A stretch of 64,000 nucleotides of DNA, from NCBI GenBank assembly GCA_963576735.1, contig OY755181.1, forward strand, positions 16,195,261 through 16,259,260, written 5' to 3'. The DNA is from Bedellia somnulentella. Lineage: Eukaryota > Arthropoda > Insecta > Lepidoptera > Bedelliidae. Shown piece after piece: positions 12,259 to 40,942 of this stretch. The notes under the pieces are model-generated. The model was not told the DNA's origin and made no database searches. It saw only the letters and a program-made list of their open reading frames with translations. Each line of letters begins with the position of its first letter. Within the stretch, counting starts at the first letter, position 1. The position numbers were made by a program, and so were the translations under genes.

Positions 12259-15200
12259 ATGAAAGAATTTCCGATAACAGAGGTACCGGCATTTTCTAAG
12301 AAGGATCGTATTGTGGTTGTTGGTATAATAGGAAAATCACCGTACCGATCACCTAATAAAACAACACCTTTACTGCCGAGAGTAGACACGAACGAGGTAT
12401 GTTGCTAACTAAGTGGTTTCTCTACATAAGGTTTCGGATTTCTGATACGCTTGAGGAGCTTTACACCACCACTAACCAATATTCTGCCAAGTCAGATAGG
12501 AAATAGTTGCAAATATATCTTCATTCTTACCTATGTAATTTGCTATAAGTAGGGGTCAGACACAAAGAACATAGATCGAGACTCAAAGATTCTGTAATGG
12601 TAGCCACATACTGGAAGACCTAGTGTGTATATGACTCCCATGAAGTAGACTTACTACATATTTAAACATAATATGAATGTTTTGGAAAGCTAGTAGATGA
12701 GGGCAGCGCAGAATTGGTATCAGTGAAGATGCTTGGGAATGTCTGTGTTCAGTAGTAAATATCTATAGCCTAAGGTGAATAATGCAATTAAAGAGAGCCT
12801 TATTGATAATAAGGATTTAAACTTGGTTAACATTATGTTTTTAAATACAACAAAATTAGTTCAAAATTTTACATAACATAACATAAACATAACATAAACG
12901 TTCACGCCGTTTTATCCCCGAAGGGGTTGGCAGAGGTACCAATGCTCCTGAACTCACATGGCAAGCGCCATCTAGTTTCCAGAGAAGGTACCCACGTTTT
13001 GCTTAGACAGTGTACTCACGTGATAGGGGGCAGGCCTATCGCCGTTTTGTACGAATACACTGTCACATGACTAAGTACAACTCAGCCATGTGGGTTTCCT
13101 CACGATGTTTTCCCTCACCGTTAGCAACCATGATAAATTAACCACACATATGACTTTAGAAAAGACAAATTGGTGTAGGCCCGTCCCAGGATTGGAACTC
13201 ACGCCCTTCTGTTTTTCGGGCGGGTGTTCTTACCCACTGGACTATCATGTCGCTAAAAAAATTCAAAATTCAAAATTTTACTTGCAATAATAAGAAAATA
13301 ATACTTGAATACACCTCATTAAAGTAGAATATTAAAGAAGAGGTAATGGTCAACAATTGACCAATTAATAATATGAAATGAAAGATCAATTGAACAATGA
13401 CCAAAAAATAGCACTTCTGTATTTCATCCCATTAGCTAGCATAAAAATTCTATTAGTGACTAAGTGATAATTGAAACTATTCACAAATTAACACATCATA
13501 TAGTTTGTAGAATCCCATAATTAATATGCATTTTATAGGCAGAACTTCAGGTCATGTTACAGTTAAAGTTTAGTATTTTTGTTCCATTTATGGTTCTATC
13601 CTTTTATTATATTTGCACTGTTGCAGTGTTTGTACTTAGTCAAGCCCTATACCTTGTTGCTAAATTTTGCTTCCACAGACCTCATTTATATATTTTTCAT
13701 AAATGCATGGGTGAAATTGATTTGTATAGTGGTAGTCTTCATGTATATTTATTTGGATCATTCATTTCCAAACTGATTTGATTCTGTATTTCAAGTATTA
13801 TAAAATAATAGGGTGATATATTGTTTCAGAATGGCATCAAATGTTACTGGGATGAAAGATCAAGTATTATGTACCTTCACACAACCACCTACTTGGACAC
13901 CAAACAGCTCACAGAACTTGCAGCTAACCTAAAGAAAGATGATTCCAATGAATCAGAAAAAGATATTGATCCATCCGACTGGCTGGTTGCAGCTGGTAAA
14001 CTGGCAACAGATTCTTGCAGGGCCATTGCATTGGTGTTCCATTTATCCCAGATAGTCATACTATCGTCCCCTACACCAGTTTTTGATCTTGGCTATTTGC
14101 AATTGTTTAAAGCTATTGATGCATACAGGTTAGTAAAGTGTGTGTTCCATTGAATGGTCAAGCATTCAAAACTCAAATGCTTTCAATATAAATTATGGGA
14201 AAAAAAAAAGTCAAAAAGTTTATTTTTCAAAATAAAGTTAAATACTAACATTTTCTGAACGTCAAAGTTTTAAATTAATCGTTAATCCGTTGCTTCGGAA
14301 GGTGTTCGTAAAAAGAAGAAGCATGGAATGTCGGCACATTTTACCAGATAGTAATAGTAATAGATAAAGGATCAAGGAAAGGCTTAATAAGGATTAAAAT
14401 TGAAGAAATGGTTTAGAGCTGTTTTAAGCTCACACTACACAGCTTAAATTAAAATCATTGACAATAATAAAAAAAACTGTACAGAATTTAACAAATCTTC
14501 TTACATTGTATTTGTGTTAAGTTCTAGAAAATTTACTGGTTATAAGATGGCTAAATGCCGTGTAGTGCCAGCTTAGAATGTCGCTACCCCTTTCTACCCA
14601 CGGGTGTCGTAAGAGGCGACTAAGGGTATTGGGGCTTTTTATTGGATTTTTGGGCGATGCGGTTGGAGACCCATCACCAAAAACCTTTATTTTACCATCT
14701 TTTCCCCACTCAACTTCCAAAAGTGGCTGAGGAATTTATATTTCCTTAGCTCTGGTAACCCCTTCTAGGGAAATATAGCCGTGAGTATATGTATGTATGT
14801 ATGTAAGATGGCTAAAATAAATAGGGAACTCTAAAAGTGAAATACAGACATGAACAAAGAAAAGATTTTTGGTTTATTTAGTTTCAGGGTTTCCCTTTCA
14901 AAACCATCTGCTGGGCCGTCCTATTCTTTTTTTTATATTGCAATATTGTCAATACAGAAAAGAAAGAAGAAAGAAAAGACGTTTATTTGCCATGTGTGGC
15001 ACAAAAAACCTACAAACAAAAATAATAATATAAATAATAACTATTAAAGTAAATTAAAACTAACACAATATTAAACATGAGAAAAAAACAAAACAAAAAT
15101 TCACACACACAATACAATACGACATTTCAGACTAGACCTATCTCCAAAGACCACCGAAGCCCTCTCATCATCCAACATAGGCGGCAACTGGGAGAGCCAC

Positions 15201-18200
15201 GGCCGCCCCTGCTGCCCCAGACTGCTGTTCCACTTCCACAGAGCTCCTCGACAACTCAAGAGAGCACCCGCTGCCTTGAAGAGATTGGAACATGCTGTGG
15301 AAGATCAGCTTTATTTTATATTAAGAAAAGCTAGGATTATTACTAATGTTTGGTGAGTTTCTTAAACGAGGGTAATAGAAAAACGTGATATAAGGTAGCA
15401 CGGTTTTTTTATTAATATTAACACTTAAATTTACATGATGACACTCAATGTTTGAAGTATCAAGTTTGGTCCAAAAGTATTTTATTTTGTATAGAAATAA
15501 GCAAATCTTTGGGTAACTCATATGATACTGAAACTTTTTGAATGTATGGTATGAATAGTATAACATCCTCAGTATTATTTATGCTAATGCTTTTCATCAG
15601 TGGTTATATGATAATTCTACTTCAAAAGAAGATAACATCACAGTTAGTGACTTAAATAATCATCTGGTCTAAAGCAAAGTTAATATATGTCAGTCCCTAG
15701 TATACATTATACGATACAATTATCTAATACATATATTTTTAAACTTCCAGTGCAAAATCTCTATTCGCCATCCCAAAGAACGAAGAATTCGTCTACATAA
15801 ACGCTAACGATGAAGCCTGCAGCGCCCGTGATGTTAGTTCCCTAGTGGCTGGTTTGGTTGGACTGTGTAATGGATCTATTGAAGAACCTACCACTGACAG
15901 GATTCCATTCAAACAGTTTCTTCAGGGTCATATAGACTTGGCTTTTTATGAGGGCTTTGATGACAATGTTGGGAAGTACGCTATGAGCACTTCGTTTTTC
16001 GAGGTAAGCTTTTTAAGTTAAGAAAGAAGGAAAGATATTTGTTTGTTGCCAACTCTGATAGAGAAAATTAATTTATAAAATGCATGCATGATAAGAATTA
16101 TAGATATAAACTAACCTAGAGGTTTGCCAGGCTCGTTAAAAGTGGCGTTCGTTAATCTCTGCCTACCCCAATGGGAAATAATGTACATACATACGTACAT
16201 ACTATGTCAAGATGGTTCGGGTGCATAGGTAGAATGGATGGTAGCCTAATGGTAAAAGATTTTAAAGAGCCAATGTGTTGATGGATGTAAACAAAGCTAA
16301 GGGGATCTGCCGGGCTCGTTTAAAATGGCGATTGATAATCTCTTCCAACTTCGATGGGAAATAATAGCGTGAGAATATGTTTGTAAGTTTAACATAAATA
16401 AATATAATAAAAATCAAACACAAAAATTTCGCCAAAAAACAGTTAAAAGGAAAAACATAAATGTATGTATATTAAGAGCTTGTCGCTTTGATTAGCTAAT
16501 AGAACTGTTAGAGTAACTTTTAAAAAATTCTATACAGTTTGAATGGCATAGCGGTAACATTAATCATTCCAACTCTGAAGTTCCGAACCGGAAACTTTCC
16601 CGAAACACAGTAGTGTAAACAAATGCTTTAACTATCTTTCTCATCTGGGAGGGCTAAGTTAAAATGTACTAAACAGTTTTATAAACGCTTATATTAGAGA
16701 TCGCTGTTTAGCGATAAGTCCGACTGTTGTTTACCTGCTTATTGTATTTCATTCTGTTTTTTGTCCGTGTATTGTTTTGGTGTTCAATAAAGTGTATTAT
16801 TATATGTGTCGTTCGATAGCTACCGAGTGCTAAAGGCTGGAAACGAGCAGCTGAAGTTTTAACTCCCATTTATCTTGAGAAGCCGGCTCCTGGAGATTCT
16901 AAGGAAGACCACGGAGCACTATACGACTCTCTGGCGACGGATGTTCGGTTCTCACATGCTAGATGTGCTAAGGTGACTTACAAAAAATATATGCATTATT
17001 ATAATTATAAATAGTTTCTGCCGACCTCAATGGGACTTAATCTTCTCATCATAAGTAGGTCAGTTAGGAAAAATATAAATAAATGTCGTGTCTCAAATGG
17101 CGCCTCATTATTTTTCTTTAACGGGCATTTTTCCCAATATATTTAAAATCATTTTGGATTCAGAGTAACTTTTGCTTAGTTTCTTTATATTTTATGAAAA
17201 CATCGATTAGTTTGGAATAATTAAATTAAACAAAGGGTTTCTTTGAATTATTTTCAGGTATTGCCGATAGCCCAAGCGTCGTACGCCGAAGGATTACCGT
17301 CACATTACTCCAGCCAACATCATGCTCATAAGGTATGATTTAAAGAATAATTAAAAGTAGTTAATCGTCCACTCCAAGATATTGACTGACTGATTTAAAT
17401 GAATCTATACTAACATTATACAGCCAGTTTGTTTGTTTGAGCTAGCTAGTAATTAATTTTTAAAATTTTGTATTGTCTCGCCTTTGTACACCAACTTTAA
17501 CATAGTTGGGTTGTGCTTAACAATTTTTATTGGTACTAAAATCAAGCATGATTGTAGGTCCGTGCCGCCTTACAAACTCTGCAGTCAATGGCGAGAGGTC
17601 CGGCGGCGGCGGCGGCGCGACGCTCACTGCGGGACGCCTGCGACGACGTGTGGCGAGCGAGACGGCTGTGTGAGGCGCTCTCGCTCACACACCATCCCTG
17701 CGTGGAGCCCGAGCAGTGCGTACACTACTACACTGTATTATACACTGACTATACGCGTGCGACGACGTGTGGCGAGCGAGACGGCTGTGTGAGGCGCTCT
17801 CGCTCACACACCATCCCTGCGTGGAGCCCGAGCAGTGCGTACACTACTACACTGTATTATACACTGACTATACGCGTGCGACGACGTGTGGCGAGCGAGA
17901 CGGCTGTGTGAGGCGCTCTCGCTTACACACCATCCCTGCGTGGAGCCCGAGCAGTGCGTACACTACTACACTGTATTATACACTGACTATACGCGTGCGA
18001 CGACGTGTGGCGAGCGAGACGGCTGTGTGAGGCGCTCTCGCTCACACACCATCCCTGCGTGGAGCCCGAGCAGTGCGTACACTACTACACTGTATTATAC
18101 ACTGACTATACGCGTGCGACGACGTGTGGCGAGCGAGACGGCTGTGTGAGGCGCTCTCGCTCACACACCATCCCTGCGTGGAGCCCGAGCAGTGCGTACA

Positions 18201-21200
18201 CTACTACACTGTATTATACACTGACTATACGCGTGCGACGACGTGTGGCGAGCGAGACGGCTGTGTGAGGCGCTCTCGCTCACACACCATCCCTGCGTGG
18301 AGCCCGAGCAGTGCGTACACTACTACACTGTATTATACACTGACTATACGCGTGCGACGACGTGTGGCGAGCGAGACGGCTGTGTGAGGCGCTCTCGCTC
18401 ACACACCATCCCTGCGTGGAGCCCGAGCAGTGCGTACACTACTACACTGTATTATACACTGACTATACGCGTGCGACGACGTGTGGCGAGCGAGACGGCT
18501 GTGTGAGGCGCTCTCGCTCACACACCATCCCTGCGTGGAGCCCGAGCAGTGCGTACACTACTACACTGTATTATACACTGACTATACGCGTCTTCTCAAT
18601 CCTGCAACTTCCAACCCAATCGACTGTTGCAAAAGGTTTCTAATCAGATATTGTAGGTTATATTAGAAAACTTTTATGATGCACTGGCTTAATATATTTC
18701 CATATGTGCCATTGTTATATTGAAACCCTTTTAATAACTTTTAATATTTTTATGGATATCCGGCGATTTTGAAATCTGATATTTCTGGCCACGTTCTTTA
18801 TGTATGAATTAATTATAGCACGGTTGAGGCATTAATACCTCTGAAACTTAAATATTTTTTGACACACGTTTTGTTTGGATAGCGCACTCACTAGATAAGA
18901 GCCTTGTTACCGTTATTTACACTGACTTATGATAAAAAGTCAAAAATTCAAAAAAAAGTCAAAAAGTTTATTTTTCAAAATAAAGTTAATAACTAAAATT
19001 TTTAGAACGTCAAAGTTTTAAATTAATCTTTAATCCGTTGCTTCGGAAGGTGTTCGTAAAGAGAAGAAGCAACAAAGAAACTCTTTACATTCACATTTTT
19101 TCATTTTTTCATTGAACACCATTCAGCTATCTGGGTTCCCTGCGATGTTATTCCCCACCGTTAACAACCATGATAAATCAACCGCACATAGGTCCTTAAA
19201 AAGAACTGTTGTAGGCACGACCCCAGATTAAAATACACCCCTCTCACCTCTCACTCTTCAAATTTCCAGTGACTCCTCAACCCCTCACAAATCTGCCGCG
19301 CGCATCATCTCAGCCTGCGACTGCGGCCGCTCCCGCCTCCCGCGCGACGACCCGTACTGCGTCAAGTCCGCCAACTGCAGCTTCTACGAGCGGGCGGCCA
19401 GACACTGCGGACACTGCCAAACGCATAACACCAAACATTTCCCTGTGTTTCAGCCTTCCACCAACACTTATAAGTGAGTATTTGCATCGACCAACGAACA
19501 TGAATTACTTTAAAAATATTATAAGTATTTACACCAACGAACATGTGTCCCCACCCGTACTGCGTAAAGTCCGCCAACTGAAACTTCTACGAGCGCGCCG
19601 CCAGATACTGCGGACACTGCCAATCGCATAACACCAAACATTTCCCAGTGTTCCAGCCTTCTACCAACACTTATAAGTGAGTATATAGAGCAACGAACGA
19701 GAGAGTGTCACGTTCTATGTTGGTAACACTTAAAGGGCCATTTACACTTTGCGAAGTGTGAAGTGATAAGTGTAAGCGTTCACTTAACGCGATAAGTCTC
19801 AAGTGTTAAGTAGTCTTTCTATCTCCGTTTACAAAGTGTTTAGAACAAGCTCAAAGTGGTAGTATCTGTTGTGCATAGTGTTTCTAAAAATGGACGACGA
19901 ACAGCGCTTAGTATTGAGAAGAATAATAATAAAAAGTATGTGGTTCGGTCCACTTCATTTTCGCTTTTTGAACTTGACACTGCACAGACACACACGTGTT
20001 TACACACTGATTAGTACAGGCGAACTGCGAGTGAGGGGAGCGGAACAGTGCAAGGGGGGAGGTAACTTAACAGCAAAAGTAGAACTGATTCTATTCACTC
20101 GCACTAATCGCTCGCACTTAACACTTAACACTAATCACTTCTCGCTTCCGTTCACACTTTGATAACTAAACACCTGCACTAATCACCTGCAGTGTTAACT
20201 AATCAAAGTGTAAACCGCCCTTGTGAGTAGACGGACCAACGAAAATGAGTAATTTTACAAATGCGAACAAAACTTGTACGAGCGAGCGGCCACACACTGT
20301 GGACACTGCCAAACGCACAACACCATTGTTCCCACAACACTTCCCGGTGTTTCAACCTTCTACCAACACTTTTAAGTAAGTATTTTAATCAAACCTCGAA
20401 AAAGTGTCACTTTTCACGCTCGTGACACTTGTAAGAAAGTATTGACACCGATAAAAATATGAGTCTCTTTACAAATGCGAACAAAATTTGTACGAGCGAA
20501 CGGCCAGACACGGACACTGCCAAACGAATAACACCAAACACTCCCCTATGTTCCAGCCTTCTACCAACACTCATAAGTGAGTATTTACATCGACCAACGA
20601 ACATGAGGCACTTCACAAATGTTATAAATGAGTATTTACAATTGCGAACCAAACTTTTACGAACGGGCGGCCAGACACTGCGGATACTGCCAAACGCACA
20701 ACACCAAACATTTTTCAGTGTTTGACTTATAAGTGATATAGTGTAAGACCAACGAAAACTCTATCCGATTTAGCTTAATAATAATAATAAAACGTTTATT
20801 TCAGATAAGTCACATCCATATTACATAAAATTCAAAACAATTAAATTAAAAATTAATTAAAATAAATAAATTAAATTAAACAAAAATAATACTAATTAAA
20901 AATTACAATTAAAAATTAAACATCAGCTCGTAAATATTATATTTTAGTCAGTAAATGAATCATACTGCAATGATTCATGTACTGACAGTCAAATCTACCT
21001 GAAAATGCCCTCAGAATGGTGTTGGGACTGGCCCGAACCCTACTCACCAGGGATGTGCACCTCTTTCGCATGGTTGCATAAAAACAGTCAACCCCCGCCT
21101 CGGCGAACATCCCTGATGCGCTACAGTATCGAGGCAGTCCCATCAACACCCGGAAAGCATTATTGTATTGAACACGAAGAGCGCTGTACTGCTTCTGCGT

Positions 21201-24200
21201 GTATGTCACCCACAGACTGCTGGTGTAGAATGATGTACAGTAAGATTTGAACAGAGTCAGCTTTACGTTTCTAGAACACCTGGCAAATCTGCGGGCAAGC
21301 ATATTAGCCCTCACAGACAACGCTCTCCGCTCTCTTTCGATGTCTGCATCGTCTTTTAGATCACTGGTGACCAAATTACCGAGATATATAAATGTAGACA
21401 CTCTTTGTAGTACTTTACCATTTAGTTTTATCTGCGGAATTTCTATTAAATCCCTGCCCTTGACCTGAAACACCATGCATTCGCTCTTCTTCTCGTTATA
21501 TACAAGACCATGTTTTAGTGCATAGCTCTCACATATTTTTATCAATTTAGTCAAACCACAGACCGACGCACTCAGCAGCACCATGTCATCAGCGTAACTA
21601 AAATTGTTCATACAAATGTCTCAATGTGGCATCCGACGTGAGTGCTGCTCAGTTCCTCTATTAGCGCATTCACATATAGGTTGAAGAGCCTTGGAGAAGT
21701 TAGCCCCCCCTGTCTCAATCCGCACTCCAACGTATATGGTTCAGACACCCCATCCGACCATCGAACAACATTTACCTGGTTCAAATACCAATATTTAAAT
21801 ATTTCCAGAATTTCGTCTGACATACATATGTTTGACAGTTTATCCCATAAAACATCGTAATGAACCAGGTCAAATGCTTTCGACAAATCGAGAAAACAAG
21901 CATAAATAGGTGTATTACGCCCAGTATAGTACTTGACAGTTTGCTTAAGACATAAGATTGCTGTTTCAGTTGAAAGTCCAGCCTTGAATCCAAACTGATT
22001 GTCATGTATTTTTAAATATCTATCAAGTTCTTTATTAAGCAAACTGTCGAGTACTTTAGCCATTATCGTCGCTAAAGAGATCGGTCTGTAGTTATTCCTG
22101 TCGCTCACATCTCCATTTTTATTTTTAACAATAGGGACTACTACTGTCCTCATCATATCTTCGGGTATGTAGGAGTGACTCAGGCATAAAGAGTAAAACA
22201 TCGCAAGTACACGGGGCAGGCGAACACCAGCATACTTGAGATGTTCCAGACTGAGGCTGTCATTGCCAGGAGACTTACCTCTTGATATCGATTGAATGCA
22301 GATTTTAACATCTTTAGCCGTAAATCTGGTCTTCATCTCCTGTCCATCCAGGCCCTCGGCCATAGTCGACTGAGCTTTGCCTATTGGCGACTTAACAATG
22401 AATTGTTCCTTGAACAGTTCAGCAATACATTTAGCATTACTAAGTCCGTTTACACTGATGGGTAAGCTTTGTTTAGGTTTAAGTTTATTTGTTGATTTCC
22501 AAAAACTACGAAAGTCTTGCCGAGTATGGTGAGATGCGAGAATATCCATTTTAATTTGATCTTCATTATTTTGACACCATTTGACGCGTAACTTAAACAT
22601 TTTTCTACTTTCTCGCATCTCATTCCAGGCAGTACCCTCTATATGCTTACCACTTAATACCCATATTTTGTATTTATCCCTAGCCACCTCATGAGCTTCC
22701 CTTACATGTTTATTCCACCCTATAATATGCTTTTTCTTTCTCACCCTACTAACAAAACTATCAGTTGCGGCCTTACATAAAACATCAATAATATTATTAT
22801 ACAATTTATCAATATAAAGTCTATGTTTAAAATAATTACATTTATTATCACAACAATTTGAAAATTCTTGAGGAAAATCTATTCTTTTTAAACCATCATT
22901 GCAAAGATTACTGTAAATGTCAATTTGATCGCTTTCTCTATTACCCCGTTTTATCCTATTAAATTCGTTAAAATTACATGTCAATATTTTTGTATTAATT
23001 ATGTTTATGTTACATTGAATAACTAATGGTAAGTGGTCAGACCAGACTGGTTCATACTTAACATAGGTATTGACAACTGTTTGCAAAGCTGACTTCGTAA
23101 CCACGCAATGGTCCAGCCAGCTCAAACATCCATTCGCATCACTAACAAAAGTGTACGAGTTAGAGGATACACCCAATTTCATTACGTCGGCACATGCCCA
23201 CTCAAAATCGTAACAAAAGTTAGTTAGTTCATAATAAAATTGCTCACCGGGGTGCTTAGGTACACTCCTTTGCCCTCAGCTGCCCGGCACACATAAAGTC
23301 ATGGTGAAGCCGCACAGGCCACAGGGCCAGCAGCAACCAATACTTTCGAAAACAAGACTAACGAAACAATGTCACTTTCCACGTGCGAAGGCGGAAAAAA
23401 AGATCACAGAGACACAATCGACTTGAAACTATCTTATTATTGATATTGGAGGAGGACGCATCTATCTTTCATTCTTTCCATCGACTAAGTAAAACTATCG
23501 CTCGTAAACCGGTTTTAGGGCAACCAACTGAAAACTACTCTGGGATCCATTAGGGCCGATTTTTTTAACAGTTAATAAATAATATCCATTCGTCACTTCG
23601 TAAAGACTATTTCTTATTAATTATGTATGATATCTATAAATCATATCAAGGCTAAACATTCAGATCACTTCACATCCACTCTTCAAAAACCTCACTCATT
23701 TACTCTCTCTCTCTAACCATTCATCCTCAGAGAAGCGTCAGTAAAAGAACAAAAGTCCCAAGAACCGGTAGACGGCGAAGTGCGCGTCGAGGAAGGATCG
23801 CCGGATGGCTGGTCGGGATCGCCGGAATCACTATCGCCGGGGTCGCAACGGGGGAGCAATACACCGGATGAGAAGGTATTGATGGTGATGTTCAGCTTTT
23901 TCTGTCATGTCATGAGGATAGAATAGTTCAACCCAATTCTTTTCCTGGTTGTTTGTTAAATGACAATGTTGAACCAAAAGGCTCGGAAAAGTTATGAGCC
24001 ACTTCTTTTTTTAGCTTAATGATGGAAATGTGAAGCCCTTAAGGCTTATGCTTGACTTGTATATTTTATTAAAAAATATGAAAAAGACCCTGTTGTCCTT
24101 TTTAGTTCGCAAATTTGGTTTAAAATAGCTTTCATAGCTCAATGGGAGAACAACCACAAAATTATGCAAATGGGTAAAAATTCCGAGTTGAGCTAACACT

Positions 24201-27200
24201 AAGGGCCGGCGCTGACTGCCGGCATGGCATGGCAAAGGATTTCGGTAAGATATAGCCATTTTTAATCTTATTTCCATGAGTATAGAATTCATTTTACTTT
24301 ATTTTGACACAACGATGCCGAGGGAGGCCGCGGTAGGACAGAACGTCGGCATCGTTGTGTAAAATGAATTCTATACTCATGGAAATAAGATTAAAAATGG
24401 CTATATCTTACCGAAATCCTTTGCCATGCCATGCCGGCAGTCAGCACCGGCCCTTATGTGTCTTTTCTAAAGTCACTTGTGTGGTAATTAGTCTTAGTAA
24501 TTAACCGTGGGCAAAAACATCGTGAGGAAACCCACATGGGTATATTGTACTTAGTCATTTGGCAGTGTATACATACAAGACGGTGATAGGCCTGCCAATT
24601 AACGTGCTGTTCAGAAGTTTAAGTACATTCGCCACCCCTTTGGGGATACACAGTGTAAACGTTTGAGATTATTATATTATATATTTAGTATTGAATATTG
24701 GGAATTCATGCAAATTAGATTCACAACTAAATATACTATGATACGAATTTCAGATACCGAGCTCACCGAAAAGATACGATGTGGTTGCTGTGAGAGAAGA
24801 TAACTCTTTGGGTAATATTATTTCAATTGTGCACTTGCTTTATGAAATGTTTTGAAATATTAGTATTCTAAAGCGAAAACCGTTGTGATGTGATCGATAT
24901 CTTTAATTAATAGTGATGATGTGTTGAGCCTTGATAGTTCAGTGAGGACATAACTGGTTTTTATACAGGAGACTTAATTATACATCCAGGGTTAGACCTT
25001 CACTAATGTGTCTTTTCTGAAGTTATTTGTGTGCTTAATTTATCAAGTTAGTTATCAAATTTACATAGTCGTATGACAAAGCACTGGTGTAAAACGTTGA
25101 TATGTCTGCCCTGTAGCACGGGGATCCACTTTCCTAGCAAAACGTTGGTAACACCAGGTATTAAAAATTACAGGTGACGTTCGAAAGTGTGAGAACCCCT
25201 TCCTTCGGAGTTATACGAAGTTAACCTTGAGTTAAGTTGATATGTTGACTTGGATGTTTACCGTTGTGGGAAGAGAACCGACTGAGATGCTAAAGATGGA
25301 ATGTAGTTCTGAAATGAACTTACCTCTTTTAGTTGAAGTTCCCACCTTAAAATTATGTTGACCGCGCTGATTAAGTTAAAATGTATGAACGAATGGAACA
25401 TTTCCTTAGCTTTTGGAAGTTAATTAAAGAGATGATGGTAAAAATAAAAAGTCTTTTCTGAAGGGAAAGCACGAGCGCTATTTTATCGACACGATAACGG
25501 TTAGAATGAGATGGCAGTATACGATACTAAGTAAGTGCGTAAGAGATGGCTGCTTTATCCCACGCGATCACTGGTTTAAACACGGCTCGTACTAGCCGGG
25601 CTGATGGGTCTCCAACATATATCCATAGTCGCCTTGTAGGTCATCTGCGGGAATAAGTGGGTAGTAGCATCAAACAGAAATAGCTTAAGTAATAATTTTA
25701 TTACAACAGACAAGAAGAGTCGTGGCAGGCGGTGCAATAAAACTTGTAAATGAGAGATCTTACACTAGGTTTCATTTGTGACATCACAAAGTGTTATGCG
25801 GCGTTCGCACTCGCGTTTTAGTATTTCAATCAAAGAAATATAGTTCAAATGGGCGCACAAGAGAGCAGTTCCTATTCGTTCTGCCATTACCTTTTGTTTT
25901 AAGCTATTACTTTTCCAGGGAACAAGTTTTTAACAATTTGTACTTAAACCTTTGCAGAGCGCATAGGCCGTCAATGGTCGACCACCGAATACCTTCCTGG
26001 CATGCTCCACCTTACAAGCCCTGATGGTCTTCTTCCTGCCTTCTCATCATGGTCATTAAAACAACTGGGAGCATCCTCATTATACTCACACTGCGCCGGC
26101 CTCCCAGACCATCTGCAGCCCGGGATGCTGCCGCATGCCGCCGCGCTCGTGCCATGGGACTGCGCTGTCAGGTGATACAGATTTTAGGAACAACAAAGAA
26201 CTGGCCGATTCCCATCGTTTTCTATCAACTTAAAATTTGTATTTGTACAAAGCTTGAGGGATTGTTTGATACCGCGATGTATGATATGAAAGAGACGTCG
26301 CTAGTGTGCGAGTAAATTTGCCATTGTGAGCACGAGCTGACGCTTGATGCGCGGACTAGAGATCGCTCCACTAAAATACTCGTCGTCGTCACAGGACAGA
26401 ACCTCATATACTTAATTATATAATAATCATATTTTTTAATATTGCGCTAGGTACATTTTAGGGCCATGACCTTTTTGGTATCATTACATGTTGTATCTAA
26501 TAGGCTATTTGACTACGTTTTGAAAACTATCTTACGGTGTTAATTTGTTTACTAGGAGCCCTAAAAAAAGATTTTTCTGTCTTCATTATAGCTATTTTAT
26601 TAAAAAATCGAAAAAGAAAATGCAATATTTAAATGTGCCGCGAAAACGCGACTTGAATTAATATGGCGGCTGTAGCACAAATGACGTCAATTCCGCATTA
26701 TGCACCAATGAGCAAAGCGATACACAGTCTGTTTATGCGTGATTTACGTCATTATAGAAATAACCAATCACGGTCGTTTTTAGTCACGTGACAGTTGCAT
26801 CAAAAATTATTATTGTAGAAGACGCTTATTGTAGAAGACGGATTTTAGTGAAATAATGCAATATTTTAATCTCGCATTATTACATAATAATATTGCTCCA
26901 CAAAAGAATTATTAAGACTAATAAGACAGCCTATTGTTAAATACTGTTTCTAATTTTGTTTTTAATAACAAATAAACATTTCACTTACTTACTTACTAAA
27001 TAGAGTGGTTGAACATGATGCTATCCAGTGTAGGTTGGCGGACTGACATACCGTGATTGTAACCGAGGGCGACATTTTTAGGTCCCCTTCTTAACACGGA
27101 AACACCTTTTTTCAAATAATCAGGTGATTTAAGTCAGCACCCTTATCAAATTGGATTGAATCTCACAGATTGAATTTGTCAGTGATTGAGCACTCATTTT

Positions 27201-30200
27201 GTGTTTGCTTTTAAAAGTGTGACTTAAGTATCTTTTCAATACCATTCTATTTGGATACAATATCTGAATCGGTTCCCTTCTCACGAATTCCAATAGTGGT
27301 TGACCTATAAAATGCGAAGTCACATATGCAAATTCACATTTAAATTAGTAAATTAAGTGTTATAATGTTTTCTAAAACTCAAGACTCAAAGTTAACGTCG
27401 TATTTACTTGAACTTCAGAAAATCACGTGTCATTATTGACACTTAATTTCTAATAGATAGTAGTATGATAGTCTCTAAGCAATTTAGGAAAGCTGAAACA
27501 TACATAACTCTTTTCCAATCTTTGGTACGTTCAAACTTAGAGTATGCGTCGGTCGCCATCTAATTACTGTTTAAATTTATCTGAAGAATGTTGTGTATTT
27601 ACTTTTGTCTATTTACGCGTTGTGGTTGTGATCCTTTTTCAAGTTTTATTTCTGTTTTTCTTGTTGTATTTCTGTAAAGATAACTTTTTGTATTGATTGT
27701 TTTTGTTACTATCTGTGAGAAAAGTTAAGGAGATACCAAAATTTATTTACTTATGTTCTATGTGTTGTTATTTTATATTCTTTTTGCTATTTCTGTTTTT
27801 TCTTCTTAATAAATAAATTAAACTTATTATTTTCGTTATAAATATTGCTTAACACTATATTACATTTCAGTCGCAGCGAGCAGGCGGGGGCATGGCGTGG
27901 CCGGGGGAGGGGGCGGGGGGGCGCCGCGCCGCTCACCGTCAAGATCTTCTTTGGGTACGAGTACGAGTGCCCGCGGGGACACAGGTGCGTGTCTATTTGT
28001 ACACATACATATGTACATTTTTTTGCTATATAATAGCCTTTATAATTTCTGATTTATGGCCTATTAATCGGCCGTTCAGAGAATCCGTTCCTGACACATG
28101 TCAGTTAGTCATAATAAAGTCAACATAAAGCGCCGACATAACCCTGTAAAAGCGCAGTATAGATTTAGAAAACTATTGTTTATCAAGTTATTTGACACTC
28201 AGTTAGGCACAAAATCACAACATTAATTGATTATTGATATAATAATGTTGTTTTAATGCTCATCAATTGTTAAAACCATAATCAACCAGCAAAAATATTT
28301 TTATCGTAACTGCAACGCCATTACAAAGTTACGTCGTTAGTTCAATCGCGACGTGTTAGGAACGCATAGTTTCTGTAACCACAGAACATATACCTACATT
28401 TTTAGCATGTTATTTTATTTTACGTTTGTTGTAGTATATGTTGTAATTGTATTAATGATTGTTGTGATAACATATACACACATTTTTATTAGATAATAAG
28501 AAATTATTATTCTGATAGTTTCAAATAGATTATTGGAAATAACTTAAGACTTTCCCAAGAAATCAATGGAGTCTCTTCTTCTAAAAGCAGACTGCAATTG
28601 CTAGTTGTAATAAACTTTGTGAACAATTAATGAAAACTATTGCTTATAGAATTTAAACCTTGTGTTAGCAGGGGATCCCTAGCTACTCGAAAATCACTCG
28701 CCACTTCACTCCAATTTGGCTCTGCGAAGCATTCATGCCCACCTTAGTATTATATGATATAAATTTTCAAATCGGACCATAATCTCCGCAGACAAATCCT
28801 GCAATCCCCCACCGCGAACACAGGGGTAGGCAGCACGGGCGCCCGGCTGGCGAGCAGTCCCGTGCCGCTGTACGTCCCGTGCGCGTGTCGGCCGCACTCG
28901 CTGGCGTACTGCGCGCGCCTGCACGTCGTCACGCCCAAAGCGCCCGTGCACGTTACGTTGCATCCTAAGGTATGTAACTCTCTATAGACAGATACTGTAG
29001 CGACACGCTATTAATTCACAATGACGCGCAGTACATAGATTCGCTGACAGAGCAAGAAGCATCACATTATACAGCAACACGTAACCATATACGTCACACT
29101 CGGCATCAAAACTTGCCATAAAAACGTTGTCACGCCGAAAGCGTCCGTATATGTTATGTTGCGTCCTAAGGTAGCTATGTTTCTTTAGATCGATACTCAT
29201 GTCCCGGAATGATAGAGGATAGGAGGGAACAGGGGCGGGGGGAAGCTAGAGACTGCACGGCGTCGTTCCTCCTAAACCACATAGTCATTGCCAAGCGTCA
29301 TTTTCTCTTGAAACAGATCCTCCAATCGCCCACAGGGGTTAGAGAGTAAACTAAGGTGAGAATTGTTTATATAGACAGATGATCTAATCTACTACAGTGG
29401 AGAGAACGGTAATGAGTCTTATGTCTTTATAGATGCTCCAATCTACGACTGTGGGAGTTTTTAAAAGTCCCACAATGGATTAAATCCGCAACGAGAAGGT
29501 TGCCAAGAGTTGAGAAATCTTAGAATTTAACCACGCACTAGACAACGCATTTAGGATAGACCTTATTCTAGAAACATATTGTTTCTATACATGGACGATC
29601 TAATCTCCACAATAGATAAGGGTAGGTAGTATGTCTATCTAGCATCCCCTTGCCGCTGTCGGCCGCACTCGCTGGCGTACTGCGCCAGACTGTACGTCGT
29701 CACGCCGAAAGCGCCCGTGCATTTTACGTTGCATCCTAAGGTAAAAAAATGGCATCAATATTGGAAAGGTATAAGCAATCAAAGAGGTTTTGTTAAAAAA
29801 AACACTCTGTGCAACTAGCAAAGAAAATTGCAAAATTTGAGATCCGGTTGCGGGGCACATCATCTAGTCTAAAACACCCATACATGTTACACTGCATCCT
29901 AGCGTATGGAGATATATAATTGACTAAATGAGCGACTGAATTTCAATGAGTGGGACACATCTTCAGCAGAATCTAGGGTTTTGGGATTTCTAAAGTTCTT
30001 GTACTTTACTATTGAGTAGTCGCGCACGCAGTGAGATTAGACCTCACTCGAAGTGAACAGAAATCTTGGTGATTATTGCGTGTGAGATAAAGAAAACTCA
30101 ATGTTTTATCTTGGCTTAATTTTTCTGAGTAAAATTATCTTTTTCAACCACTGACCTCCATTATACTATATAAGTACGCTGGACTAATGATACGTATTAA

Positions 30201-32556
30201 AATGAGAGCTATTTATTGTGCCGATTTGAAGCTCCCCCAATGAGGGGGAAAGGAACTAAATCTGACGTAAACTGCAAATTGGCCAGTGCTTTTTTTACTA
30301 TTGTTTACTAGGGATGAAAAGTGTGATGAAGATATCGAGAGAAGAGTGAAAAAGGGTAATGCGGTAAATGGAGCACTGGATAGTCTAATGTCTAGTCAGT
30401 CGGTGTCTGAAAAGGCCCGAATGGCTGTGCATGATGCTGTCCTCGTTCCTACGCTTATGTATGGCAGTGAATGTTGGGTGTGGCAGAAGAAGCATGAAAG
30501 TAGAGTGAATGCAGTAGAAATGAGATCCCTCAGAAAAGTGTGTAATGTAAGGTTATGTGATCGTGTGAGGAATGATGTGATTCGTGAAAGGTGTGGTGTA
30601 AAAGATGATATTGTAAGAAAGATAGAAAAAGGAATGTTGAGATGGTTTGGGCACATAGAGAGGATGGATGACAGTATATTGGTGAAAGAGATATATAGAG
30701 CCAGTGTGGAAGGTAATATTAGTAGAGGACGACCTCGGAGGACACATTTGGATCAAAAAGAAAATGTGCTCAAAAAGGCAGGTGTCCGCAGTATGAAGAA
30801 TAAAAGAGCATGTATGAAAAGATTGATGGATGTAAACGAAGCCAGAGAGGTTTGCCAGGATCGTACAAAGTGGCGATCGATAGTCTCTGCCTACCCCAAT
30901 GGGAACTAACGGCGTGAGAATATGTATGTATGTATGTATGTTTTTTTACCATAAAGCGTAATATATCTATGGTTTTAATAATTAAAAAAAATCAATAGTG
31001 CTGTGACCATGCTGTGAAATTCAGTTTCGATAAAACTTGCCGATGCAGACCGTGTAGTGCCTACAGACAGATTGTTAAACATAGATAGTCTTTTAATTTA
31101 CAGGTTTCTAACTTTGGAATTATGGCTGAAAAGTATTAATAAGTCTAGCTCACGTCCAAAAGAATATGATTACATATGCTCAAAACACTTCACTGACGTC
31201 TGTTTTATTAAGCATAAGCATACTCTTTGAGAAAGTGAAAAACTTTATTTTGTTTGTATTTAATATAATAAATAATAAAATTATGTTTATTTTCTATAAA
31301 TACGTCACCTAATCTATTTATTGGATTGTCACAGGCAAGTGTAACGGATAGCAGCTCATTACGTACTGAAGTTGAAGTTTCATATATATTAAAAAAACGT
31401 TCCTCCCGCACTACGGGCAACCCTTTTGGGAGGCAGTGCATTGTAATTTTATTTTATATTATGTGTAATATTTGGATCCAATAAATCTTTTTTTTTTTTT
31501 TTGTTCCCTATTTATTGTTGGATCTAGCTAGCTATACATAAACTACCCACATTTCCCGGCTTCGGCTTATCCTACGATTACTCAATCCTTGGTTAGTTAT
31601 AGTATTAGCGATCAATGTAATTAGTTTGGACATTAGCCTTGATTAATGCATTACGAGCACTGACCTCCATTATACTATATAAGTACGCTGGACTAATGAT
31701 ACGTATCAAAATGACAGCTATTTACTGTGCCAATTTGAAGCGCCCCCAATGAAGGAACGAGGAACTAAATATGACGTAAACTGCAAAATGGCCAGTGTTT
31801 TTTTTACCATAAAGCATAATATATCTATGGTTTTTAGAAACAATTATAAATCAATAGTGCTGTAAAGTTTCGTTTCGATAAAACTTAGCCTTTCCTTTAA
31901 GCAGAAACATTTTATCGATATATTTTATCTTCCTGTCCCATCTCTTTTATTAGTTCCTTGTTCCTTCACTGCTGCCGTAAGCGCCAAAATGGCGAAAATC
32001 AAATCGCCTCACTGTCACCCGGCCTATAATTAGTCCAGCGTACTTACATAGTATAATGGAGGTCAGTGATTACGAGTAATATGATCCATTCCTTTAAGTA
32101 AAAGCTTTTATCGATATATTCTATCTTACCGTCCCATAAGCGCCAAAATGGCGAAAATCAAATTGCCTCAACATGTCACGGCCTATAATTTGCCTTTCCC
32201 AGCTTACTTACATAGTATAATGGAGGTCAGTGTGTTCAACGTATTAAAAATTCTCCCCTATTTCTAGTATTTCGATAGCATTCTTTACGATCAATACCAA
32301 TCAATACGGTGCACTTTTGCTATCATATATTAACCCCACCCAAACTTGCTTCCAGGTGCAACCAACCCCAGGCGGACCCGTCTTCATCCCGCAACCAGAA
32401 AGCGACCCGCCAATTAAACTGTCTTCCTCCGCTTACTGGGTACTTCGCTTCCCGTTTGTGTACTGCGATGAGAAGGGACCTCTTCCCAGACCGGAACCTA
32501 ACGCTGCGCATGCGCCTGGGAAGATATTGGCACCTATGTTCGGATTGGCTGATTAG
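12259..32556 (+). CDS. SMG8: SMG8, nonsense-mediated decay factor (left-arm copy, complete)
   Basis: Fourteen exons: 12259-12396, 13830-14128, 15131-15352, 15751-16003, 16820-16972, 17258-17332, 17558-17715, 19270-19473, 23731-23875, 24754-24811, 25958-26171, 27871-27984, 28792-28969 and 32356-32556; 2412 bases, 803 residues plus TAG. All junctions are GT-AG with matching phases. It follows the SMG8 family in order: N-terminal G-like fold (IVVVGIIGKS), PCCPRLLFHF and HAVEDQLYFILRKARI in exon 3, NEEFVYIN in exon 4, LCEALSLTHHPC in exon 7, the cysteine-rich ACDCGRSRLPRDDPYC and FPVFQPST in exon 8, TEYLPGMLH and FSSWSLKQLG in exon 11, FFGYEYECPRG in exon 12, and the C-terminal YWVLRFPFVYCDEKGPLP. 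SMG8 joins SMG9 on the SMG1 kinase and restrains it during mRNA decay (family knowledge). It is shorter than human SMG8 (about 990 residues). Exons 7, 8, 13 and 14 have duplicated tails downstream. Confidence 0.92.
12873..13268 (-). mobile_element. tRNA-derived SINE in SMG8 intron 1, left arm only
   Basis: A near full-length minus-strand copy of the SINE at 4773-5134. It is flanked by the exact 13-bp duplication TTCAAAATTTTAC (12860-12872 and 13269-13281). The other arm (near 60200) has one copy of this site and no SINE. Confidence 0.85.
14205..14345 (+). repeat. Short interspersed repeat, third family
   Basis: Begins AGTCAAAAAGTTTATTTTTC and contains CGTTGCTTCGGAAGGTGTTC. Further copies are at 18935-19120 and, mirrored, 59150-59285. 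Identity unknown. Confidence 0.55.
14556..14804 (+). mobile_element. 245-bp SINE-like repeat in SMG8 intron 2, left arm only
   Basis: A full-length plus-strand copy flanked by the 12-bp duplication AAGATGGCTAAA (14544-14555 and 14805-14816). The other arm has an unoccupied site near 58930. Confidence 0.85.
16100..16390 (+). mobile_element. Two RTE LINE 3' tails
   Basis: Two short 3' ends of the RTE family at 30299-30941 (CTCGTTAAAAGTGGCGTTCG and CTCGTTTAAAATGGCGATTG, each followed by a variant of CTACCCCAATGGGAAATAAT). Both are in SMG8 intron 4 and have counterparts in the other arm (57370-57610), so they predate the split of the arms. Confidence 0.65.
17642..18591 (+). repeat. 119-bp tandem repeat made from SMG8 exon 7 tail and donor, 8 units
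   Basis: Units start at 17642, 17761, 17880, 17999, 18118, 18237, 18356 and 18475. Each unit begins GACGACGTGTGGCGAGCGAG inside exon 7, runs through the last 74 bases of the exon and the 5' splice site (CCCGAGCA|GTGCGTAC), and ends about 45 bases into the intron at TATACGCGTG. The first unit holds the real exon end (17715). Units are nearly identical; the third has a visible T-for-C change at about 17923. The period is not a multiple of three and one frame carries a TGA, so no frame reads through; the 87-codon ORFs in it are by-products. Confidence 0.95.
18825..19265 (-). mobile_element. Old SINE interrupted by another repeat
   Basis: A decayed minus-strand SINE of the 4773-5134 family, split at about 18935-19120 by the repeat family of 14205-14345. 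In the other arm (54375-54600) the SINE is uninterrupted, so the inner insertion is specific to this arm. Confidence 0.6.
19554..20732 (+). repeat. Four degenerate copies of the SMG8 exon 8 tail with donors
   Basis: Downstream of the real exon 8 end (19473) its 3' half recurs at 19554-19676, about 20265-20376, about 20480-20576 and about 20650-20732. Each ends with the exon tail ACACTTATAA or a variant directly followed by a donor-like GTGAGT, GTAAGT or GTGATA. The first copy has TGA in place of the TGC codon of SANC. The second has an insertion around TTGTTCCCACAA, and the fourth lacks the CAGCCTTC segment. They are in the order and orientation of the gene. Confidence 0.88.
19733..20222. mobile_element. 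Non-autonomous DNA element between exon 8 tail copies
   Basis: Termini AAGGGCCATTTACACTTTG and the inverse of CAAAGTGTAAACCGCCCTT form an inverted repeat. It lies between two copies of the exon 8 tail and is absent from the other arm (near 53680). The 97-codon ORF inside has no recognisable content. Superfamily not assigned. Confidence 0.65.
20776..23280 (-). mobile_element. 5'-truncated LINE in SMG8 intron 8, left arm only
   Basis: Minus strand. An ORF from 23182 to 21608 carries the end of an APE endonuclease (WSDHLPLVIQ) and a reverse transcriptase (NNYRPISLATIMAKVLD, FLDLSKAFDLVHYDVLW, GLRQGGLTSPRLFNLY). After a one-base frameshift near 21610, a second ORF (21611-20937) continues with FSYADDMVLLSASV and the thumb and C-terminal region. 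It is a jockey/CR1-group element that is nearly intact except for the frameshift and missing 5' part. The 3' tail is an ATT-type microsatellite (20776-20790). The other arm has an uninterrupted site near 53215. Confidence 0.88.
24200..24456. mobile_element. Foldback hairpin element, 98-bp arms
   Basis: Arms 24200-24297 and 24359-24456 are nearly perfect reverse complements (TAAGGGCCGG outer end). The loop contains a second, smaller inverted repeat (GATGCCG with CGGCATC). It lies in SMG8 intron 9 and is not seen in the other arm. A 93-codon ORF on one arm is a by-product. Confidence 0.75.
24470..24668 (+). mobile_element. tRNA-derived SINE, 5'-truncated
   Basis: A diverged plus-strand copy lacking the tRNA head (ATGTGTCTTTTCTAAAGTCA to GTGTAAACGTTTGAG). 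Its counterpart in the other arm is at about 51775-51985. A still more diverged copy lies at about 25000-25230. Confidence 0.6.
26502..26932. mobile_element. MITE in SMG8 intron 11, left arm only
   Basis: Termini AGGCTATTTGAC and the inverse of GACAGCCT. The other arm reads through the site without it (near 48950). About 430 bp, non-coding. Confidence 0.65.
27475..27600 (+). mobile_element. LINE reverse-transcriptase remnant
   Basis: A short piece of the LINE described at 47590-48150, with most of it deleted here; the deletion point follows the GTCGGTCGCC segment at about 27555. Confidence 0.6.
29121..29912 (+). repeat. Three degenerate copies of the SMG8 exon 13 tail with donors
   Basis: Downstream of the real exon 13 end (28969) the tail recurs at about 29125-29170, 29650-29740 and 29870-29912. 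The longest, 29650-29740, preserves the frame over the GGCCGCACTCGCTGGCGTAC segment down to CATCCTAAG|GTAAAA. The second ends CGTCCTAAG|GTAGCT, and the third CATCCTAGC|GTATGG. All are in gene orientation within intron 13. Confidence 0.85.
30299..30941 (+). mobile_element. 5'-truncated RTE LINE, left arm only
   Basis: The open frame to 30909 carries the C-terminal part of an RTE-type reverse transcriptase (TLMYGSECWVWQKKHESRVN, MLRWFGHIERMDD, SRGRPRRTHLDQ). It ends CTACCCCAATGGGAACTAAC and then ATGTATGTATGTATG. TTTTTTAC is duplicated at 30291-30298 and 30942-30949. The other arm has the uninterrupted site near 42000. Confidence 0.88.
31658..32068. mobile_element. 411-bp MITE of the P-like family, left arm only
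   Basis: It has the same CACTGACCTCCATTATACTA termini as its host element. It is flanked by the exact 8-bp duplication ATTACGAG (31650-31657 and 32069-32076). The other arm has a single ATTACGAG (reverse complement near 41390), an empty site. Confidence 0.92.
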
Positions 32557-32715
32557 GTTATGTCTTTTTATATGTATTTCTTAACTGTATGTTTGGGGAG
32601 ATGGAGATGGGTTATCAGTGTAGATACAAAGACATATGTTTGGGGAGAAGTTGTCTTGTGTTTCTGATTGGCCATCAATTGGCAACTATGTTCGGATTGG
32701 CTGATTAGGTTGTAA
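32527..32715 (+). repeat. Direct duplicate of the SMG8 exon 14 tail and stop codon
   Basis: The last coding bases and stop (TATGTTCGGATTGGCTGATT then AGG, about 32535-32559) recur at about 32690-32713, roughly 155 bp downstream, in the 3' UTR. TATGTTTGGGGAGA and TGATTGG blocks in between also repeat. The other arm has the same arrangement (40913-40942 with about 40768-40798). Confidence 0.75.
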
Positions 32716-33663
32716 GGTTTTGTAAAGGTATGCTTGTAACTATATGTTTGATGGGTTGTGAAGACCTATGTAAGGGAGAAGGTCTCGGAAGGTGTATTGT
32801 GTTTGTGATTGGGAATGTTAGGTTTATCGCTCATGTGAGCCTATAAGTCAAGAGTAAAGTCAGACATTCTTCTTGTGAAATGATTGTGATACGAATTCTA
32901 TAGATACGAATGCTAAATATACGTCTAAAAATCTTCACGTAAACAAAAAGTTTACGAAAACCATACATTACATAAATTACTAAATTACAGAGTATGATTA
33001 AATAAAATAAGTTTAATAACTCATTTATTCGGCAAATTTTCAAAAGAGTAAAAAATAAACTGTGTATGATTTATTACGTAATTTTAAGCACGATAATTAA
33101 TATGTATTCGACTCGAAGGACCAAACTAACATTAGTCACATTATGTGACTAATTATGTGACATATTTGGAAAATACTTAATTTTAAGTACAGCTAAGTTT
33201 ATGAAATAACGGTACCAAATATAAAATGTTCCATCGCTGATTATTTTCGTAAATTTTTTATATAGTTTTTTAGTAACTATAGAATTTCTTGTAAAGTGAA
33301 TCCAACTAAATCCATTGTTTTAAATTTAAGGATGTAAAATATAGGATCTTAAGTTAAAAAAACTAGGTCTTCTAGTCTTGTCTAAAATTACCCTTCTAAT
33401 ATTATATATCGTTGGGTTATGATCCATAAACGTAAACTTATGTCATTTAAGTAATATCTCGTTAAAATGTATAATAAACATTTTGTATAATCATAGTAAT
33501 AAACACCATTTAAACATAATCTGTTATATTATTCAAACATCCATTCCTTTAGCAGTAATACTTAATTGTTGAGCTAAGCGTTTAATGAATCGTTAATGCC
33601 CGAATGTTATGTTAGTCCTAGAGGGCACGCTTACTAAATTAGTATAAGTGCAATTTTTCCGGC

Positions 33664-35159: not shown

Positions 35160-35359
35160 NNNNNNNNNNNNNNNNNNNNNNNNNNNNNNNNNNNNNNNNN
35201 NNNNNNNNNNNNNNNNNNNNNNNNNNNNNNNNNNNNNNNNNNNNNNNNNNNNNNNNNNNNNNNNNNNNNNNNNNNNNNNNNNNNNNNNNNNNNNNNNNNN
35301 NNNNNNNNNNNNNNNNNNNNNNNNNNNNNNNNNNNNNNNNNNNNNNNNNNNNNNNNNNN
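35160..35359. other. Assembly gap, exactly 200 N
   Basis: The round length is typical of a placeholder inserted by scaffolding software, so the real distance and adjacency are unknown. It lies at the axis between the two arms. ORFs drawn across it are not real. Confidence 0.97.
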
Positions 35360-38972: not shown

Positions 38973-40767
38973 TATGTATTTATAGTATATTTTTTTATCA
39001 TTTTTTGTCTTTAAAGTACCAGGGTAGCATAAACATAAAAGCAGCATAAATAAAAAAGCTTATTGGTTTTATACACAATCATAAGTTGGATTTTATCAAA
39101 ATCAGAATTATTGAATAATCAGACAGAAGAATCAACCAAAAGACGTCCACAGGTGGAGAAAGGCTTTTCCGAAAGATCTCCATAAAAACCGGATCTGCGC
39201 TGCCCAAAAATTTTACCACGACGAAGCGTCGGTCAAACTTATGGGAGACCTACGCGAACAAACAAACCGACCACAAGAACCCTATTAATAACCTGATTCA
39301 TATAAAAATATCACGTCGACCTCTGGACATAGAGACAGCAGACACTAAAATAGGTAAGATAAATTAAGCATCGGAAAAATATTTGTACAGATTTTCCAGT
39401 TTATTAGTCATAACAACTTTTAGTTTATGCGTTCCTGGTACTTCAATTGAGAGTTAAATTTACGTACATTTTTTTTGCTGCTTAAGTTATAATTTCCAAA
39501 AAACTTTTTAAACGTTATAACTTCTCATTCATCAAAATAATAGAAAAAAATCGTGTCTAACATGTACATTCCTCAGTAATAAATCAGTAAACCCGAAAAT
39601 TACAAACAAGTGTTGTATGCGTTGTATGTATTAAATATATTAATAAGGTACTGTCTATGTCTAATAGTTACGAGGTCTATGTATCTAAAACAAATGTCAA
39701 GTAAGACTAATGGGAAATATACGCCATAGACAATGTCCTACTTTCGGTAAGACTATTGGGAATAAAAATCCCATTAGTACTACTGGTAAGACTATCCAGT
39801 AAGACTACTGGGAATAGCCGGAAAAATTGCACTTATACTAATATAGTAAGCGTGCCCTCTAGGACTAACATAACATTCGGGCATTAACGATTCATTAAAC
39901 GCTTAGCTCAACAATTAAGTATTACTGCTAAAGGAATGGATGTTTGAATAATATAACAGATTATGTTTAAATGGTGTTTATTACTATGATTATACAAAAT
40001 GTTTATTATACATTTTAACGAGATATTACTTAAATGACATAAGTTTACGTTTATGGATCATAACCCAACGATATATAATATTAGAAGGGTAATTTTAGAC
40101 AAGACTAGAAGACCTAGTTTTTTTAACTTAAGATCCTATATTTTACATCCTTAAATTTAAAACAATGGATTTAGTTGGATTCACTTTACAAGAAATTCTA
40201 TAGTTACTAAAAAACTATATTAAAAATTTACGAAAATAATCAGCGATGGAACATTTTGTATTTGGTACCGTTATTTCATAAACTTAGCTGTATTTAAAAT
40301 TAAGTATTTTCCAAATATGTCACATAATTAGTCACATAATGTGACTAATGTTAGTTTGGTCCTGCGAGTCGAATACATATTAATTATCGTGCTTAAAATT
40401 ACGTAATAAATCATACACAGTTTATTTTTTACTCTTTTGAAAATTTGCCGAATAAATGAGTTATTAAACTTATTATATTTAATCATACTCTGTAATTTAG
40501 TAATTTATGTAATGTATGCTTTTCGTAAACTTTTTGTTTACGTGAAGATTTTTAGACGTATATTTAGCATTCGTATCTATAGAATTCGTATCACAATCAT
40601 TTCACAAGAAGAATGTCTGACTTTACTCTTGACTTATAGGCTCACATGAGCGATAAACCTAACATTCCCAATCACAAACACAATACACCTTCGGAGACCT
40701 TCTCCCTTACATAGGTCTTCACAACCCATCAAACATATAGTTACAAGCATACCTTTACAAAACCTTA
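38973..40767. other. 3' flank of right-arm SMG8 and end of the foldback element
   Basis: No gene seen. Positions 39690-39830 hold the GTAAGACTA-TGGGA inverted motifs of the foldback element; the remainder mirrors 32716-34500. Confidence 0.5.
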
Positions 40768-40942
40768 CAACCTAATCAGCCAATCCGAACATAGTTGCCA
40801 ATTGATGGCCAATCAGAAACACAAGACAACTTCTCCCCAAACATATGTCTTTGTATCTACACTGACAACCCATCAAACATACAGTTAAGAAATACATATA
40901 AAAAGACATAACCTAATCAGCCAATCCGAACATAGGTGCCAA
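40768..40942 (-). repeat. Duplicate of the SMG8 exon 14 tail, right arm
   Basis: Mirror of 32527-32715: the stop-codon segment (reverse complement AATCAGCCAATCCGAACATA) occurs at 40915-40938 and again at about 40774-40793. Confidence 0.7.

Follow-up and report, generated by a model that had tools for sequence, protein, structure and literature searches.

The 64,000-nucleotide stretch of Bedellia somnulentella DNA analyzed here (contig OY755181.1; the window) carries the gene SMG8, in which the 3′ ends of several exons are followed by copies of themselves. Inspection of the window reveals two inverted halves, A (1-35159, + strand) and B (35360-64000, - strand), placed head to head across 200 N, with an intact SMG8 gene in each (Table 1). 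The two coding sequences differ at 37 of 2409 nucleotides, 33 of these at third codon positions, and the proteins differ at six amino acids. The last 87 bases of A before the gap also match B, which fits two haplotype contigs put together by a scaffolder. Halves A and B are most likely two haplotypes, a true inverted duplication being the less probable alternative, and the assembly probably retains a haplotypic duplication here, so that gene counts taken from it would be inflated. Half B was used as a second copy of SMG8, with the understanding that A and B are not independent.

The gene was identified with a 729-aa, 13-exon model lacking exon 3, for which a Pfam scan returned the Smg8_Smg9 domain. 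A homology search with the same model, which scored only the 7992 candidates with the most shared words, returned 55 proteins with the SMG8 of moths and butterflies as the best relatives. A 14-exon, 803-aa model was used elsewhere; its exon numbering agrees with that of the original prediction, and the SMG8 model aligns with six relatives without any added exon segment. None of the 55 SMG8 proteins contains internal repeats, a comparison that would reveal only duplications reaching the protein, and no relatives' DNA was found in collections of genome contigs and viral contigs queried with a 173-aa piece.

Table 1. Coordinates of SMG8 and its exon-tail copies in the window.
Feature	Coordinates	Strand	Remarks
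SMG8, half A	12259..32556	+	14 coding exons, 803 aa; stop TAG 32554-32556; spliced model, frame intact
SMG8, half B (probable second haplotype)	40916..60821	-	14 exons, intact, spliced model; coordinates without stop codon
Exon 7 array, A	17640..18591	+	8 units of 119 bp; first unit is the last 76 nt of exon 7, donor and first 43 nt of intron
Exon 7 array, B	54809..56117	-	11 units, all identical
Exon 8 tail and copies, A	19350..20770 (right end approximate)	+	Four decayed downstream copies, first period 203 bp; split by 486-bp insertion
Exon 8 tail and copies, B	53232..54240	-	Four copies, first period 211 bp
Exon 13 tail and copies, A	28876..29970	+	Copies at 29124-29197, 29647-29743 and about 29855-29970
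Exon 13 copy also aligning with upstream intron, acceptor and head, A	29524..29760	+	
Exon 13 tail and copies, B	42343..44197	-	Five copies, with a variable number tandem repeat (VNTR) between copies
Exon 14 duplication, A	32526..32812	+	Last 28 nt coding, stop codon and 3′ flank; once; period 152 bp
Exon 14 duplication, B	40668..40943	-	Period 141 bp
Gap between inverted halves	35160..35359	.	200 N

To locate exon-end copies, the last 60 nt of each exon was aligned to the following intron or 3′ flank, and the scores were compared with those of 60 shuffles. Local downstream tail copies exist for exons 7, 8, 13 and 14 only (4 of 14), and these are the same in both halves, with scores of 26-60 (z 10-28) against 14-21 for the best of the shuffles; local BLAST agrees. 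The claim from the sequence alone that the tails of these four exons, plus the adjoining downstream sequence, are copied in the same orientation at differing stages of decay is thus confirmed in both halves. The copy numbers it gave also hold, with a homogeneous array at exon 7 (8 units in A, 11 in B), four copies at exon 8, three to five at exon 13 (three in A, five in B) and one at exon 14. The copies are arranged head to tail in one orientation, as in tandem duplication, with first-copy periods of 119, 203/211, 201 and 152/141 bp at exons 7, 8, 13 and 14, respectively (A/B where two values are given); later exon 8 and exon 13 copies are irregularly spaced. Leftward extension of homology is absent at exons 7, 8 and 14 (z -1.6 to 0.9). 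Judged from sequence, all four sites look like tandem duplications, decayed to clearly different degrees, with exchange afterwards.

Exon heads behave differently from tails. Head probes aligned to the preceding intron give no convincing copy for any of the 14 exons in either half. The nearest match is that of exon 3 in A, which scores 13 where the best of 60 shuffles reaches 12; it fails in B (6 versus 15). The exon 13 head matches weakly within the intron that follows, in both halves (15 versus 14 for the best shuffle). A sliding scan at a score of 22 found upstream or downstream copies for 0 of 56 head-spanning probes in either half. Equal numbers of 5′-end duplicates, which would have spoken against the predicted polarity, are therefore not seen inside SMG8, where four tails stand against no heads (n = 4). 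Absence from an independent assembly, the other outcome named as refuting, was approached through half B alone, in which these four features recur. Downstream copies do occur for 9 of 236 intron probes outside the arrays; the comparison with 4 of 14 exon tails gives P = 0.0016, an optimistic value because the gene was selected for showing the pattern. A PEX11-like gene upstream of SMG8 (7773-11598, - strand; Pfam PEX11 in two of its open reading frames) served as a control and yielded no copy for any of its 4 tails or 4 heads; its exon borders as modeled are off by one base or more, since the joined frame breaks, with little effect on the probes.

The four sites differ in decay and make-up. 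Exon 7 units begin at exon position 83, and a single mismatch exists among all 19 units of A and B (2261 bp of array). Since the adjoining introns differ by ~4-5% between halves, recent spread or homogenization of the array is needed. The unit is flanked by the near-identical ACGCCT and ACGCGT, the only clear junction microhomology, the older junctions having decayed. Provided that A and B are alleles, the 8 versus 11 units, together with a recombinant exon 13 copy described below, correspond to the behavior of a minisatellite or VNTR. Exon 14 presents a single old duplication comprising 28 coding nucleotides, the stop codon and ~118 nt of 3′ flank.

The exon 8 unit begins at about exon position 81, and all 10 A/B differences in this exon fall within the duplicated part (positions 94-190). 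At 7 of the 10 variant sites the copies include both the A and the B state (P 0.0009, with unvaried sites as the null). Exchange has probably taken place between the copies and the exon itself, with no direction indicated, a conclusion that draws on the shared states more than on the number of differences. Several other features lie in this region. In A, the exon 8 array is interrupted at 19735-20220 by a 486-bp, MITE-like (miniature inverted-repeat transposable element) insertion whose inverted ends are GGGCCATTTACACTTTG / CAAAGTGTAAACCGCCC; shortened exact strings of these ends were not found in B when searched in the same orientation. Intron 8 of A also holds an antisense element with reverse transcriptase at 20776-23282 (Pfam RVT_1 in two open reading frames, the second below the curated cut-off), for which B's intron 8 has no counterpart, and a long inverted repeat with arms of ~110 bp was spotted by eye in intron 9 of A (24204-24460). 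The block 19111-27689, which includes exons 8-11, differs by ~6-26% between A and B and lies between stretches of 96-99% identity; it may represent an old haplotype, introgression or exchange.

Exon 13 complicates the tail-only description. At 29524-29760, the copy matches the preceding intron and the acceptor in addition to the exon's head and tail. For the upstream-intron part taken by itself, 11 of 2000 shuffled probes score as high in A and 1 of 2000 in B, as do 2 of 437 (A) and 2 of 423 (B) other intron windows. The head part is weaker in A (23 of 2000 shuffles, 29 of 464 windows) than in B (0 of 2000 and 1 of 446). In an anchored leftward test, the B counterpart is matched by 0 of 1000 at 120 nt, with A again weak (32 of 1000 at 85 nt, 70 of 1000 at 130 nt). 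A search of the whole intron with the 50 nt before exon 13 was not significant in A (76 of 500) and weak in B (10 of 500); a head match at 29299-29333 was reached by 3 of 500 shuffles in such a search. The first exon 13 copy shows no leftward extension in the anchored test in either half. One exon 13 unit thus probably covered the whole exon, including acceptor and head, while the other copies look tail-only, and the architecture proposed for this exon stands for the first copy and probably fails for the one at 29524-29760. A's copy at 29647-29743 corresponds to one B copy in its left flank and to a different B copy on the right, and ~800 bp of B is missing from A there; this mixed make-up indicates that one haplotype is an exchange product. 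Within the ~800 bp of intron 13 missing from A, B carries a VNTR at 42750-43306 with a 67-bp (3 x 22-bp) unit in ~8 copies.

Could the copies have been created by the assembly? The inverted duplicate and the N gap point to one error of scaffolding or purging close by, and the unit number of a near-identical array such as that of exon 7 is open to misassembly. All four features are nevertheless present in both halves, and the copies at exons 8, 13 and 14 are decayed and individually distinct, which makes an artefact extremely unlikely as an explanation for the pattern.

A second explanation, proposed with the original prediction, is a directional mutational process at exon 3′ ends, in which replication or break repair acts at GC-rich tails. 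Four events on the same side within one gene are what such a process would give, and whole-exon GC is indeed weakly higher in duplicated than in unduplicated exons (one-sided P = 0.028). Tail GC, on which the proposal depends, fails to separate the two classes (28 of 40 pairs, one-sided P = 0.15). The last 60 nt of exons 9, 11 and 12 are GC-rich (0.62, 0.72 and 0.63) and have no copies, whereas the copied tail of exon 8 has a GC content of only 0.43; exon 9 had been counted among the exons without a GC-rich tail, and exons 11 and 12 had been passed over. Inspection of the breakpoints gives a mixed result. GACGAC or GTCGTC occurs in only three exons, 7, 8 and 13, near their unit starts, a post hoc lead, and similarity among the breakpoint windows exceeds that of positions drawn at random from the exons concerned (38 of 1000 with four exons, 50 of 1000 with three). 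A shared breakpoint motif was rejected, as 702 of 1000 dinucleotide-preserving shuffles match the similarity of the three breakpoint windows. Unusual DNA folding was likewise unconvincing as a candidate (five strands of four units, z -2.1 to 0.1). We regard a directional process as unlikely. Of the recurring local process originally envisaged, the four tandem duplications with differing decay remain, and a special process at GC-rich exon tails does not.

Because the copied tails include donors, their effect on splicing was also considered. Donor-like sites are kept in many copies, with the GT intact at 16 of 16 bases in eight exon 8 copies and at 17 of 18 bases in nine exon 13 pieces. If exon 7 is extended as far as the second donor, the frame shifts, and extension to the third or any later donor brings in a stop; exon 8 meets a stop immediately past its own donor, and exon 13 within 20 nt. 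The extra donors might thus be functional, such that frame-shifted or truncated isoforms would feed nonsense-mediated decay and SMG8 would tune itself. This we consider very unlikely on the sequence features at hand. Selective donor retention in the decayed exon 8 copies was rejected, since 14 of 92 exon dinucleotides are just as invariant; the exon 14 copy comes after a stop codon and not a donor; and copy number varies freely between halves. Given an intact and conserved protein, splicing presumably relies on the first donors to a considerable extent at least.

The explanation that we favor, with a fair margin of doubt, is that these are ordinary small tandem duplications kept at exon 3′ ends because the first, used copy stays intact. 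Duplications with a unit of ~120-210 bp would have arisen several times in SMG8, possibly initiated by slippage or microhomology. Of two equal donors, the upstream one would be chosen under exon definition, and, since the ribosome halts at the first stop codon, the exon 14 duplication would obey the same first-copy rule. The extra tail copies would then remain in the intron or 3′ untranslated region (UTR) and decay, with later turnover at no fewer than three sites (exons 7, 8 and 13) by unequal exchange among copies, and at exon 8 probably also with the exon itself. A unit across an acceptor or start codon would place its extra copy upstream, making that copy likely to be used and to disrupt the protein. 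Selection, in which the first copy wins, would accordingly be the cause of the tail-only polarity. Experiments in PMC9225289 are consistent with the donor step; five minigenes, each carrying two identical strong donors, used the upstream one exclusively under exon definition, and competing acceptors showed an upstream preference that was reduced under exon definition.

Several observations weigh against this explanation. The same study concludes that the sites nearest across the exon are favored under exon definition, so head duplications might be tolerated too. In its transcriptome analysis, strength-matched donors favor the upstream site in only 60% of events and unmatched donors favor the downstream site in ~60%; weakened donors in large exons led to skipping; and the data are human. 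In SMG8, the exon 7 donor (17716-17721, GCA/GTGCGT) has the lowest score of the gene's 13 donors and is also the donor repeated 8-11 times, and intron 6 is only 225 nt long. The exchange inferred at exon 8 is also affected, as the copy-free exons 9 and 10 differ between A and B about as much as the exon 8 tail (8 of 145 and 4 of 58) and the stretch from ~19 to 27.7 kb is more divergent as a whole; old divergence around exons 8-11 accounts for part of the exon 8 signal. In flies, according to PMC6380325, interspersed small duplications are more abundant than tandem ones. Finally, the 4:0 tail-to-head polarity is itself weak (two-sided Fisher 0.098; 0.22 without exon 13).

This last point bears equally on a reading without any polarity, in which random tandem duplications fell at tails four times out of four by luck and copies of constrained exons stay recognizable longer than copies of introns. 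The small number of events, the exon 13 copy that is probably not tail-only and the local repeats in introns all agree with it. The same detection advantage should, however, apply to head copies, yet none was found among 14 exons in both halves. We assign random duplication a lesser but appreciable likelihood.

A broader suggestion may be offered tentatively, as something short of an even chance. Gene anatomy may be polarized in its tolerance of small tandem duplications, in that those across a donor or stop are silent; decaying tail ladders would accumulate in introns and exchange back into the exon, as at exon 8, raising local coding polymorphism. Should the polarity hold across genomes, the frequency with which short tandem duplications strike genes would be readable from tail-copy ladders, as would the outcome of competition between identical splice sites. 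One source of alternative donors would be explained as well, together with a way for decayed copies in introns to rewrite coding exons.

A limited search of open-licence literature, by titles and abstract starts, recognized no description of tail-only ladders among the papers listed. The statement that no named phenomenon covers the pattern was nonetheless too strong, since minisatellites are known to undergo unequal exchange, and exon-intron borders to be crossed by partial tandem duplications. The part for which that search gave no precedent is the tail-only polarity, which is testable; the duplications themselves look ordinary. Like SMG8, minisatellites and VNTRs have tandem units, length differences of the kind seen between the halves, homogenization and recombinant copies; they differ in that the first unit of each SMG8 array is the end of a coding exon under purifying selection. 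In potato, a tandem duplication across an acceptor gave a new intron (PMC4974935). As in SMG8, a small tandem duplication lies over the exon-intron border of one gene and its splice signals are inherited from the parent border, but the potato unit spans the acceptor and exon head and changes the transcript, whereas SMG8 units span donors or the stop codon and appear silent. For Drosophila, PMC2891723 cites Emerson et al. for 1901 duplications in 15 fly lines, mostly tandem with a median of 367 nt, of which 624 contain exonic sequence but no whole gene. The partial exon duplication with a proto-splice site treated there shares with SMG8 a short tandem duplication taking in part of an exon; the duplicated stretch, however, lies inside coding sequence and gives new introns, and no new intron or coding change is evident in SMG8. 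Small segmental duplications in Drosophila (PMC6380325) are similarly small, sometimes tandem, arise often and are mostly removed by selection, although interspersed copies are commoner and the excerpt gives no sign of exon-end polarity. In that data set, diverged sites of duplications are enriched in coding sequence and 3′ UTRs and depleted in 5′ UTRs and introns.

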